Source: Affinundibacterium nitidum (lineage in GTDB: Bacteria; Pseudomonadota; Gammaproteobacteria; Burkholderiales; Burkholderiaceae_D). From it: 64,000 nt of DNA. The notes under the pieces were generated by a model. That model was given only the letters and a program-made list of their open reading frames with translations, did no database searches and had not been told where the DNA came from. The translations under genes were made by a program, and so were the position numbers. The stretch spans positions 434,001 through 498,000 of the forward strand of contig NZ_JACOFZ010000001.1 of assembly GCF_014284155.1 (NCBI RefSeq), read 5' to 3'. Positions 7,323-11,059 of the stretch are shown here, piece by piece; position 1 is the first letter of the stretch, and the number at the start of each line of letters is the position of its first letter.

Positions 7323-7377
7323 TGCGCACCAAAAAAATTTTTCAAATTATTTGGAAATTTCTTTATTGCGGTGCGCA
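7323..7377. repeat. 8-bp perfect inverted repeat flanking an AT-rich spacer
   Basis: TGCGCACC at 7323-7330 is repeated in inverted form as GGTGCGCA at 7370-7377, with a 39-bp very AT-rich spacer. It lies just after the ferredoxin-reductase stop codon and before the arginine leader. It could form a long-loop RNA hairpin at the end of the reductase transcript or be a protein-binding site. No T-run follows, so it is not a standard intrinsic terminator. Confidence 0.45.
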
Positions 7378-7395
7378 AAACCCAAAAAAAACCGT

Positions 7396-7401
7396 TACAC
7401 T
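7396..7401 (+). promoter_or_regulatory. Candidate -10 box of the arg leader transcript
   Basis: TACACT fits a sigma-70 -10 element. Six bases later is the A of the ATG at 7408, the expected +1 position, so the leader peptide might be translated from a leaderless transcript. No good -35 is found at the proper distance (TTGCGG at 7366 is 24 bases away). The call is therefore tentative. Confidence 0.35.
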
Positions 7402-7407
7402 ACGTTT

Positions 7408-7491
7408 ATGCAAAATTTTACTGACATGTCTTCCCCAAATATCGCTCGACGTCGCCGTTCGCACTCCGAGCCTGGGAAGTCCTGCGCGTAA
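7408..7491 (+). CDS. Arginine-rich leader peptide of the argDFG attenuator
   Basis: A 27-codon frame ending in TAA, located 101 bp before argD. Codons at 7447-7458 are CGA CGT CGC CGT, giving four consecutive arginines in the context NIARRRRSHS, and the peptide ends PGKSCA. An internal ATG at 7426 would give 21 residues with the same Arg run. No Shine-Dalgarno precedes either ATG; a -10-like box places the transcript start at 7408, which would make it leaderless. The position before arginine genes, the Arg run and the following terminator are the hallmarks of a regulatory leader peptide whose translation senses charged tRNA-Arg. The peptide itself probably has no function. Coding is inferred, not proven by conservation. 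Confidence 0.75.
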   Translation: MQNFTDMSSPNIARRRRSHSEPGKSCA

Positions 7492-7543
7492 AGAAAGCAA
7501 GGACACATGAAAACCACAGGCTCAACCCCTGTGGTTTTTTTTT
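7430..7543 (+). promoter_or_regulatory. Arg ribosome-mediated attenuator (alternative RNA structures)
   Basis: Three competing pairings can be read. Segment 1:2 pairs CTTCCC (7430-7435) with GGGAAG (7474-7479). Segment 2:3, the antiterminator, pairs GAGCCTG (7468-7474) with CAGGCTC (7517-7523), extendable by two G-C pairs after a bulged A. Segment 3:4 is the terminator hairpin. A ribosome stalled at the Arg codons (7447-7458) would leave segment 2 free and allow 2:3, so argDFG is transcribed. A ribosome that reaches the TAA at 7489-7491 covers segment 2, and 3:4 terminates transcription. This is the logic of the his and trp attenuators, inferred here from sequence only. Confidence 0.75.
7510..7543 (+). 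terminator. Intrinsic terminator (attenuator stem 3:4) before argD
   Basis: AACCACAGG (7512-7520) pairs perfectly with CCTGTGGTT (7528-7536) around a 7-base loop, and A-U pairs can extend the stem to 11 bp. A run of nine T ends at 7543. It starts 18 bases after the leader-peptide stop and lies 49 bases before the argD ATG, so it can only serve to stop transcription entering argD. Confidence 0.9.
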
Positions 7544-7592: not shown

Positions 7593-8813
7593 ATGGAATT
7601 TAGTCAGTACAACGTCAACGCCCTGATGTACATCACACCACGCCCAGAATTGGTGTTCACAGAAGGCCGAGGCATGTGGATGACTGATCATAATGGCAAA
7701 CGCTATCTCGACTATCTGCAAGGCTGGGCGGTCAATTGCTTAGGTCATTCACCGAAATGCATCGAAGACGCCATCGTTGCCCAAGCGGGAAAACTATTGA
7801 ACCCTTCCCCTGCTTTTTACAATGAGAATATGGTGAAGTTGGCCGACTTGCTGACTCAACATTCTTGCTTCGATCGCGTGTTCTTCGCCAATAGTGGTGC
7901 GGAAGCCAACGAAGGTGCGATCAAACTTGCACGTAAGTGGGGACAAAAGAATAAGAATGGTGCGTTCGAAATCATCACCTTCGACCATGGTTTTCATGGC
8001 CGCACCTTGGCAACGATGTCGGCCTCCGGCAAACCAGGCTGGGATACGATTTTTGCACCACAAGTCACTGGTTTCCCGAAAGCAGACTTGAACGACATCG
8101 GGTCCGTTGAGAAGCTAATCAACGAAAAAACTGTGGCTGTGATGCTTGAACCAGTGCAAGGCGAAGGCGGTGTTATTCCTGCGAGTCGTGAGTTTATGCA
8201 AGCATTGCGTGCACTGACGCAAAAACACAATATTCTATTGATCGTCGACGAAGTACAAACCGGCATGGGCCGTACTGGCGAACTCTTTGGCTATCAACTA
8301 TCCGGTATCGAGCCTGACATCATGACGCTCGGCAAAGGCATAGGCGGTGGAGTACCACTGGCGGCATTGCTGGCGAAAGAAGCGGTGTCTTGTTTCGTAC
8401 CGGGTGACCAAGGCGGTACTTACAATGGTGCGCCATTAATGACGGCTGCCGGTATCGCAGTGATCAATGCACTGACCGCGCCAGGTTTCCTCGATGAAGT
8501 GAAAGCCAAGGCGGCTTATTTAAGTAAAGCTTTGTTCGCTCTTTCAGACAAGTTTCAAATGGAAGGCGAACGTGGCGAGGGCTTACTACGCGCACTCAAG
8601 CTAGGTAGTGACATCGGCCCTCGCCTAGTTGAAGTGGCGCGTGACCTCGAACCTATCGGCTTATTGATTAACTCGCCACGTCCTAATTTATTACGTTTCA
8701 TGCCCGCACTCAATGTCAGCTACGAAGAAATCGACACCCTGATTTCTATGTTAAGCCAAGTCATCCAACAGGTGAAAGACGAGCAAGCGGCAGCACCAGC
8801 AGCACAATCTTAA
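7593..8813 (+). CDS. argD: Acetylornithine aminotransferase
   Basis: A PLP-dependent class III aminotransferase of 406 residues that converts N-acetylglutamate semialdehyde to N-acetylornithine with glutamate as amino donor. ATG 7593 is chosen because AGGAG at 7581-7585 lies 7 bases upstream; a longer frame back to a TTG at 7542 would run into the terminator. The PLP lysine is K248 in the LGKGIGGG motif, preceded by the VDEVQTGMGRTG signature, with NSGAEANEGAIKLAR in the cofactor-phosphate region. It is the first gene of argD-argF-argG and sits directly behind the attenuator. Close paralogues act on ornithine or succinyldiaminopimelate, but the neighbours favour arginine synthesis. Confidence 0.93.
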   Translation: MEFSQYNVNALMYITPRPELVFTEGRGMWMTDHNGKRYLDYLQGWAVNCLGHSPKCIEDAIVAQAGKLLNPSPAFYNENMVKLADLLTQHSCFDRVFFANSGAEANEGAIKLARKWGQKNKNGAFEIITFDHGFHGRTLATMSASGKPGWDTIFAPQVTGFPKADLNDIGSVEKLINEKTVAVMLEPVQGEGGVIPASREFMQALRALTQKHNILLIVDEVQTGMGRTGELFGYQLSGIEPDIMTLGKGIGGGVPLAALLAKEAVSCFVPGDQGGTYNGAPLMTAAGIAVINALTAPGFLDEVKAKAAYLSKALFALSDKFQMEGERGEGLLRALKLGSDIGPRLVEVARDLEPIGLLINSPRPNLLRFMPALNVSYEEIDTLISMLSQVIQQVKDEQAAAPAAQS

Positions 8814-8862: not shown

Positions 8863-9780
8863 ATGACGATCAAACACTTTTTACAAGTAAGCGACTTGAG
8901 TCTAGATGAATACAACTACCTCATGCAGAGGGCTCGTATCATTAAAGACCGATTCAAGCGTTACGAACCCTACCATCCGCTGCTCGACAGAACGCTGGTC
9001 ATGGTTTTCGAAAAAAATTCAACCCGTACCCGCTTGAGCTTCGAAGCCGGCATGCATCAATTGGGCGGCGCGGCGATTTATCTCAACACACGCGATAGCC
9101 AACTGGGCCGCGGCGAGCCAGTGGAAGACGCCGGTCAAGTGATGTCACGCATGTGCGACATTATTATGATTCGTACCTTTGAACAATCGATGATAGAGCG
9201 CTTCGCAGCGAACTCACGGGTACCGGTCATCAATGGTTTAACCAATCAACACCATCCTTGCCAAGTATTTGCCGATGTTTTCACCTACATCGAACATCGT
9301 GGTTCTATCGCTGGTAAGAAAGTCGCTTGGATTGGTGATGCCAACAATATGCTGTACTCCTGGATGCAAGCGGCCAAAGTATTTGGTTTCCATTTACACA
9401 TTTCCACACCAAAAGGCTATGACATCGATCCTGCCTGCGTGACTGTCGAGGATACCTATTACACGGTGTTTGCGAATCCATCTGATGCTTGTGAGGGTGT
9501 GCACCTCGTCAATACTGACGTCTGGACCAGCATGGGTTACGAAGCTGAAAACCAAGCGCGCTTGAAAGCCTTTGATGGCTGGATCGTGGACGAAGCCAAA
9601 ATGGGTCGCGCTGATCCTCAGGCGTTATTCATGCACTGCTTGCCAGCGCACCGTGGCGAAGAGGTGTCCGCCGGTGTCATCGACGGCCCGCAATCTGTGG
9701 TCTGGGATGAAGCTGAGAACCGACTACATGTCCAAAAAGCCTTACTCGAATATTTAGTCATCGGCAAAGTCGACAACTAA
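8863..9780 (+). CDS. argF: Ornithine carbamoyltransferase
   Basis: A 305-residue enzyme that makes citrulline from ornithine and carbamoyl phosphate. The carbamoyl-phosphate motif STRTR is at residues 53-57, the HPCQ motif near 131-134, and the ornithine-binding HCLP at 258-261 followed by AHRGEE. Length matches the anabolic family. It lies 49 bp after argD and 49 bp before argG on the same strand, so it is probably part of one transcript controlled by the upstream attenuator. HCLP separates it from aspartate carbamoyltransferase. Confidence 0.96.
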
Positions 9781-9829: not shown

Positions 9830-11059
9830 ATGAGCGACGTAAAAAAAGTAGTTTTAGCCTATTCCGGTGGTCTCGATACTTCCGTCATTTTGAAGTGGTT
9901 ACAAGATAATTATCAATGTGAAATCGTGACTTTCACCGCTGACCTCGGTCAAGGCGAAGAGCTCGAACCAGCACGTGCAAAAGCGATCAAGTTTGGCATC
10001 AAACCAGAGAATATTTTCATTGATGACTTGCGTGAAGAATTTGTGCGCGATTTCGTATTTCCTATGTTCCGTGCCAATACCGTATACGAAGGTGAATATC
10101 TGCTCGGCACGTCAATCGCGCGTCCACTAATTGCAAAACGATTGATTGAAATCGCCAAGCTGACTGGCGCAGATACGATTTCACACGGTGCTACGGGCAA
10201 AGGCAATGACCAAGTTCGTTTTGAATTGGGTGCCTATGCATTGATGCCAAATGTCAAAGTTATCGCACCGTGGCGTGAATGGGATTTACTCTCTCGTGAA
10301 AAATTACTGAAATATGCAGAAGATGCCGGTATTGCGATCGATATGAAACACAAAAATGGTGGCGCACCGTACTCGATGGATGCCAACCTCTTGCATATCA
10401 GTTTTGAAGGCCGTCATTTGGAAAACCCAAGTGCGGAAGCGGAAGAATCGATGTGGCGCTGGACAGTCAGCCCAGAAGCTGCACCAGATACGCCTGAGTA
10501 TTTGGATATCGAATATGAAAAAGGCGATATCGTGGCACTGAATGGCGTACGCATGTCACCTGCCGCAGTCTTAACCGAGCTCAATCGTTTGGGCGGTAAG
10601 CACGGCATTGGTCGTTTGGATTTGGTAGAAAACCGCTACGTCGGCATGAAGTCGCGCGGCTGCTACGAAACACCTGGCGGCACTATTATGCTCCGTGCTC
10701 ACCGCGCAATCGAATCGATTACTTTGGATCGTGAAGTCGCGCATTTGAAAGATGATTTGATGCCTCGTTACGCAAGCTTGATCTATAACGGTTACTGGTG
10801 GGCACCAGAACGCGTGGCACTGCAAACCTTGATCGACCACACGCAACAAACGGTCAATGGTTGGGTACGTGTCAAGCTTTACAAAGGCAACGTCATCACG
10901 GTCTCACGAGATTCCAAAACCGACTCGCTATTTGACATGAACATCGCAACCTTTGATGAAGATGGTGGTGCATACAACCAAGCGGATGCAGGCGGCTTCA
11001 TCAAATTGAATGCGCTACGTATGCGCATCGCTGCGAACGCCAAAATTAAACGTTCCTAA
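9830..11059 (+). CDS. argG: Argininosuccinate synthase
   Basis: A 409-residue ATP-dependent ligase joining citrulline and aspartate. The N-terminal P-loop AYSGGLDTS is at residues 10-18; EGRHLENP and [18 protein letters not shown] are characteristic internal segments. Length is that of the common approximately 400-residue type. It is the last gene of the arg cluster and is followed by an intrinsic terminator. argH, which would complete arginine synthesis from argininosuccinate, is not in the window. Confidence 0.97.

Follow-up and report, generated by a model that had tools for sequence, protein, structure and literature searches.

An arginine-codon leader before argDFG of Affinundibacterium nitidum as a probable ribosome-mediated attenuator, and its occurrence in related families

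How do Affinundibacterium nitidum and its relatives adjust the expression of their arginine biosynthesis genes to the supply of arginine? The question is raised by the leader that precedes argD, argF and argG in the 64,000-nucleotide stretch of DNA analysed here (the window). Transcription attenuators are textbook knowledge for tryptophan, histidine, leucine, threonine and phenylalanine, and the textbook regulator for arginine is ArgR. In the present study, we consider it highly probable, on the comparison of sequences, that the argDFG leader acts as a ribosome-mediated transcription attenuator, which would sense charged tRNA-Arg and control argDFG. The basis for this is a conserved frame, its Arg codons, a terminator, two helices that appear to co-vary, and the failure to find ArgR. 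The parts expected of an attenuator, namely a short frame, a run of codons for the end product, an intrinsic terminator and an antiterminator exclusive of it, were all found by computation. This reading had been put forward in a preliminary description of the locus, together with a check to be made in relatives. When this check was run, the Arg run, the terminator and the alternative pairing were found to be conserved and co-varying, which supports it.

The positions of the features are given in Table 1. Direct reading of the sequence confirmed the four Arg codons that had been noticed in the short frame, and the terminator before argD was recovered with both arms and its T run, leaving a gap of 49 nt to the argD start (7593). 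The complementarity claimed between the frame and the terminator is exact, GAGCCTG at 7468-7474 being the complement of CAGGCTC in the terminator arm and loop at 7517-7523, and the antiterminator helix is further extended by GG 7475-7476 with CC 7514-7515, with a bulged A between. In stability, the leader fold of the window RNA exceeds shuffles by 3.4 sd, and the attenuator-like layout is real and far from chance. In a DNA search of the own genome, which a diverged copy would escape, only this copy of the element stood above noise.

Table 1. Positions of the leader, its RNA segments and the arg genes in the window, and of the RF02884 matches in three other loci
Feature	Position	Strand	Basis or remark
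-10 box TACACT	7396..7401	+	about 6-7 nt before leader ATG
Leader peptide frame MQNFTDMSSPNIARRRRSHSEPGKSCA, 27 aa + stop	7408..7491	+	ATG 7408, stop 7489-7491, read from sequence; no Shine-Dalgarno site
Regulatory Arg codons CGA CGT CGC CGT	7447..7458	+	read from sequence
Hairpin 1:2 (7458-7461 with 7467-7470)	7458..7470	+	pair counts in 22 genus leaders; cognate pairing test
Segment 2, antiterminator 5' strand GAGCCTGGG	7468..7476	+	sequence, pairing test, folding
Segment 3, antiterminator 3' strand CCACAGGCTC	7514..7523	+	terminator 5' arm and part of loop
Intrinsic terminator	7512..7543	+	arms AACCACAGG 7512-7520 and CCTGTGGTT 7528-7536; T run 7535-7543
argD, acetylornithine transaminase	7593..8813	+	NF002985 738 bits, cut-off 568
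argF, ornithine carbamoyltransferase	8863..9780	+	TIGR00658 342 bits, cut-off 281
argG, argininosuccinate synthase	9830..11059	+	NF001770 619 bits, cut-off 334
RF02884 match, locus L308	1287-1453		leader and terminator upstream of argD
RF02884 match, locus L309	2757-2908		leader and terminator upstream of argD
RF02884 match, locus L312	1282-1435		leader and terminator upstream of argD

Within the genus, a search with the leader peptide matched 22 of 25 genomes at E <= 4e-4, the own genome included, and the three genomes without a match are 73-89% complete; all 27 genus genomes of the family sample were matched by the leader search. The distance to the argD start is 167-300 nt in the 22 genus leaders, the point of reference being the second ATG for 20 of them and the Arg codons for the other 2. 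Beyond the genus, the search gave no match separable from noise, a match in genome G055 at E 0.125 adjoining its argD. The leader peptide is too variable for such a search and therefore argD was used as the anchor. With a criterion of E <= 1e-140, this argD was present in 149 of 295 family genomes, from each of which one upstream region was taken (a second copy in G086 was omitted). Leader and terminator were found before argD in 126 of the 149, distributed over 21 of 23 genera; this number is made up of 123 parsed leaders, L156 with a single Arg, L344, and G158 (via L035). They were not found in the other 23, 13 of which were inspected by eye and 10 by search pattern: 17 in genus g21 (17/17 loci, for example L057, L128 and L129), four in genus g29 (4/4 loci), L175 and L195. 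In the g21 loci inspected, argD begins about 4-110 bases after the upstream gene, and because it follows so closely, promoter and leader were probably lost in this genus. Loci L062 and L124-L126 are listed with the g21 examples in this loss from two genera. Upstream of argF (320 nt, by eye, in 20 genomes), no Arg leader with a terminator was found; most of these genomes are without this argD, and G044, G052 and G401 have it. Six of the 20 carry an argD-like gene before argF, and no leader was seen by eye in the 70-270 nt before it.

Judged by its substitutions, the leader frame is under coding selection, with a pN/pS of 0.25 vs 3.0 and 1.7 in the other two frames (codons 2-13, 22 genus leaders; a simpler rule was used in the control frames for codons with several changes). 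Successive Arg codons counted from CGA number three in 98 of the 123 family leaders, two in 15 and four in 10. The first of them is CGA in 123/123, these rows having been selected for CGACG, a motif present in 123 of 124 terminator loci. At L156, leader and terminator are present with a single Arg at the site of the Arg codons. The run is also opened by CGA in 19 of 22 leaders from other families, and the share of CGA among the Arg codons in the long frames of the window is 15%. This constant first CGA suggests that a single tRNA is what the sensor responds to; a demand of RNA pairing could also account for it. Two smaller observations concern the end of the frame. In L117, L112 and L155 there is an early stop codon, 21-24 nt after the first Arg codon, and the downstream RNA segments are still present. 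Of 26 genus leaders, 15 have a TGCGCG-like element (7483-7491 of the window; relatives L076-L095) after the stop, which in these leaders has shifted upstream; in 10 the element is inside the frame, and one was unmatched by the loose pattern used. The element seems to be kept for RNA reasons and perhaps closes hairpin 1:2.

The start of the leader was analysed in 121 of the 123 family leaders, two rows without a clear start being omitted. The distance from the end of the best -10 hexamer to the ATG is 7 nt in 85 and 6 nt in 18 (103/121 together). SD-like 4-mers were found before 0/121 leader ATGs vs 113/123 argD starts. Outside the family, 2 of 22 leaders have such a 4-mer and in 17 of 22 the best -10 hexamer has its end 6-7 nt before the ATG. 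Because the -10 box is close to the ATG and a Shine-Dalgarno site is missing, the leader transcript is probably leaderless, with its 5' end at the AUG. From the position of its -10 box, the start of transcription in the window is likewise expected at or beside the leader ATG. According to the available part of PMC7298713, the 5' end of the trpL (rnTrpL) attenuator RNA of Sinorhizobium meliloti is the ATG of the leader frame. It is a precedent for a start at the leader AUG, although it has tryptophan codons and belongs to an alphaproteobacterium. Upstream of the promoter, the window contains a TTGCGGTGCGCAA stretch at 7365-7380; in other relatives, GTGCGCAAAA is found behind a TTGACG -35 hexamer and nearer to the -10 box by about 10 bp, and a good -35 at the usual spacing is absent in the window itself. 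The stretch may be bound by a protein or be what is left of a promoter.

Just 3' of the Arg codons there is a hairpin in which the letters change and the pairing stays, for example CTCAT/ATGAG in L012 and CTCAC/GTGAG in L013. Its sequences vary widely, and the reading frame and the Arg codons are kept. The 3' part of this hairpin 1:2 and the bases that follow it are able to pair with the 5' arm and the loop of the terminator. For hairpin 1:2, the share of paired cells in the genus alignment is 87.3%, vs 84.1% in shuffles and no more than 45.5% after sliding. Of five pairing measures, three exceeded all or nearly all shuffles, and two were not clearly above them (pairs changed on both sides, 32/500; further pair types, 417/500). 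In addition, a cognate pairing test was carried out with 40 representatives more than 20% apart, in which the duplex energy with the own partner was compared with 2000 permutations of partners, in windows set after inspection of the sequences. Hairpin 1:2 had a mean of -7.69 with own vs -6.69 kcal/mol with permuted partners (1/2000 permutations as low), and the antiterminator -11.47 vs -10.46 kcal/mol (0/2000 as low). When the partner of segment 2 was confined to the loop and the end of the arm, the values were -8.67 vs -7.50 (0/2000). The control pairings had no gain, with -6.83 vs -7.57 for segment 2 with the spacer and -5.11 vs -5.23 for segment 1 with the arm. Hairpin 1:2 and the antiterminator thus appear to be two alternative helices that co-vary. 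A third stem, 7430-7435 with 7474-7479, had also been described. It is indeed found in the minimum-energy fold of the window RNA, but just 8 of 22 genus leaders retain its six pairs in full; it was rejected on this count as a general segment 1, and hairpin 1:2 fills the role.

The competition of these helices was followed by equilibrium folding of the nascent RNA, ended just before the terminator can close. The RNA was taken as free from 13 nt past the first base of the A-site, with a ribosome footprint from general knowledge. With the ribosome on Arg codon 2, 106 of 123 family loci had a P>0.5 for pairing between segment 2 and the terminator 5' arm; the number was 15/123 with no ribosome and 0/123 with the ribosome at the stop codon. 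Among the 40 representatives, the corresponding numbers were 33 stalled, 5 free and 0 at the stop. When the stretch between ribosome and terminator was shuffled, the mean P fell from 0.79 to 0.43 and 0/40 shuffled sets reached the real value; the arm was paired at P>0.5 in 34/40 real vs 42% of shuffled-spacer cases. In the window itself, P for the arm with segment 2 is 0.79 in the stalled state and 0.36 in the free state, this last value marking its own hairpin 1:2 as weak, and P for the arm with anything upstream is 0.08 with the ribosome at the stop. In the 22 loci outside the family, the arm was paired to some upstream partner in 22 with the ribosome stalled, in 10 without a ribosome and in 4 with the ribosome at the stop. 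At equilibrium, the three-state folding matches the needs of a trp-type attenuator.

In the mechanism that we propose, RNA polymerase would start at or beside the leader AUG, and a ribosome would load on the 5' end and read the leader. When charged tRNA-Arg is ample, the ribosome would pass CGA-CGY-CGN to the stop and cover segment 2, so that the terminator forms. When it is scarce, the ribosome would stall on the Arg codons, hiding the 5' arm of hairpin 1:2 and freeing segment 2, which would then take the terminator 5' arm and loop and let transcription continue into argD. With no ribosome, hairpin 1:2 would favour termination in most family members. The leaderless start, the stalling, the direction of the response and the co-transcription of argD, argF and argG are what we infer in this scheme. 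Against the attenuator reading stand the leaders with two Arg codons (15/123), the single Arg of L156, the residues DMSSPNI that the genus keeps although codon sensing does not call for them, and the family genomes that have argD without the element (23/149).

The preliminary description had looked to Oxalobacteraceae, but the element also occurs in other families. In an order sample of 300 genomes, argD was found at E <= 1e-110 in 46, of which 40 are outside the family. With one locus taken from each genome (a second copy in G517 was omitted), an Arg-rich leader with a terminator was present in 22 of the 40 loci, in eight families, and no leader was found in 18. L341 was added by eye, since it has no RR and so was missed by the automatic leader finder. 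L319, flagged by the same finder, was rejected for want of a fitting -10 box and an Arg run and is among the 18. Terminators and peptides outside the family differ from the family versions. On these comparisons, the element is spread over nine families. ArgR (PF01316) was over the cut-off in 0/40 chosen genomes (31 of the family, 9 of other families) and in 0/300 genomes of the order, the own genome included, and weak matches under the cut-off were seen in 1/40 and 6/300. As a control, 8 of 14 known genomes were over the cut-off. By their listed handles, the 300 scanned genomes appear to include the 40 outside-family argD genomes. By the part of PMC5343134 available, many groups of Gammaproteobacteria have a conserved ArgR, which other classes lack. 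An arginine attenuator offers an answer to arginine sensing in these bacteria, because the element stands before argD in nine families and ArgR was over the cut-off in none of the 300 genomes.

The Rfam scan of the window gave no match, T-box included, and RF02884 (BcKCsr7) did not match it even at E<=5. This model, which is filed as a Burkholderia sRNA with no function given, matches the leaders of L308, L309 and L312 with 163.7, 143 and 92.6 bits (gathering 59), all in family f31. Among the 300 order genomes only those three pass the threshold, nine weaker matches remaining below it. Judged by these matches, RF02884 is the f31 version of the arginine leader. It is alike in having a leader and a terminator upstream of argD, and its consensus encodes MNRFLSALRRRR; it differs in being typed as an sRNA without attenuator function and in that its model does not reach the window. 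As stated in the available part of PMC10987360, Bc_KC_sr7 is the same as nc5U30 and RIT34, lies at 2,967,641-2,967,787 on chromosome 1 of B. cenocepacia and is expressed, so that, on this source, RNA of the BcKCsr7 family is expressed in one relative. No function for Bc_KC_sr7 appears in the accessible part of the review PMC6321483, and the parts available of PMC4603805 and PMC10175445 do not name one for the RNA. Sass 2017 (PMC5688073) reported 82 short transcripts of 5'UTRs that arise by processing or attenuation, and arginine and argD do not occur in its main text. An orphan Rfam RNA family thus gains a proposed function.

The preliminary description had also held that the device may be new. 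This stands for the attenuator account, which was not found in the searchable literature, but a homologous form had already been catalogued as the sRNA RF02884. Among the open-licence PMC records listed, titles and abstract starts contained no arginine leader-peptide attenuator of arginine biosynthesis. The main text of Naville and Gautheret 2010 (PMC2965389) is without arginine or argD, that of PMC13236596 is without arginine, and PMC8632094, in the part available, describes other uORF motifs. As far as the open-licence literature was searched, the explanation of BcKCsr7 as an arginine attenuator is new.

Leader-peptide attenuators of the trp, his, leu and thr type are known in enteric bacteria. 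They resemble the arg leader in the end-product codon run in a short frame and in the 1:2 hairpin, the 2:3 antiterminator and the 3:4 terminator; the arg leader differs from them in its Arg codons, in having no Shine-Dalgarno site and in an antiterminator that takes in both the 5' arm and the loop of the terminator. A T-box RNA binds tRNA directly, and in this respect arginine T-boxes, which also act on arginine genes at the RNA level, differ from the leader described here. Such T-boxes are named in PMC1262725, where the available part reports no conserved RNA element before the arginine operons of Actinobacteria. The carAB leader peptide of Pseudomonas aeruginosa, described as pyrimidine attenuation in the available part of PMC4997734, likewise precedes a gene that contributes to arginine synthesis as well, but the gene is another one.

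The same layout could be read in other ways. In nascent-peptide arrest, of which fungal AAP and enteric SpeFL are examples, the leader peptide itself would stall the ribosome with free arginine or ornithine as the ligand. The strong conservation of DMSSPNI-RRR in the genus would suit this, the DMSSPNI residues being conserved there beyond the need of codon sensing. However, between genera the Arg run alone stays and the flanking residues vary freely, and with the same RNA layout an arrest by arginine would switch the pathway on at arginine plenty, so that we regard this mechanism as very improbable. A related case, the Salmonella speF leader frame orf34 (SpeFL), has consecutive Arg codons and responds to arginine, according to the available part of PMC6386406. 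It differs in working through Rho and RNase G and not an intrinsic terminator, in serving a polyamine pathway and in having a Shine-Dalgarno site, and by eye the arg leader peptides look unlike its HIRRT core (DUF2618, PF10940).

We give an equally small chance to the terminated leader (Rfam BcKCsr7) being, as a trans-acting small RNA, the functional product. RF02884 is filed as an sRNA and matches the leaders of three f31 genomes, and Bc_KC_sr7 is expressed in B. cenocepacia by the available part of PMC10987360, but argD lies downstream in 78 of the 80 named loci listed and what is conserved is a coding frame, Arg codons and a switch pairing. A role as sRNA and a role as attenuator are compatible and not mutually exclusive. 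The stable leader fold would also be in keeping with a metabolite-binding riboswitch or a protein-binding leader; with hairpin letters that vary widely, a frame and Arg codons that are kept and no Rfam match in the window, this is the least credible of the readings. The arginine attenuator could also be part of a broader arrangement, in which attenuation by a leaderless peptide would be the ancestral arg control in much of the order, replacing ArgR, and in which the terminated leader (BcKCsr7) or the Arg-rich peptide would in addition act in trans, as has been reported for rnTrpL and peTrpL of S. meliloti. We regard this combination as rather unlikely, and put it forward tentatively.

A DNA pattern of the family form matched 106 stretches in the named-species collection. 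Among the matches listed (80 of the 106) are Undibacterium, Herbaspirillum, Herminiimonas, Collimonas, Noviherbaspirillum, Oxalicibacterium, Glaciimonas and Keguizhuia, one Duganella MAG, and records whose names give a family, an order or a phylum only. The distance from the element to argD was 22-261 nt in 78 of the 80 listed loci; of the other two, L249 stops at the element, and in L270 a different gene follows. In L270, the Arg leader and terminator at 1711-1875 stand before this different gene, with the start MTEISTDRARLDVPLIHRFLSEES, in place of argD. We take the gene to resemble a GNAT acetyltransferase, and the attenuator at this locus may have been moved or copied.
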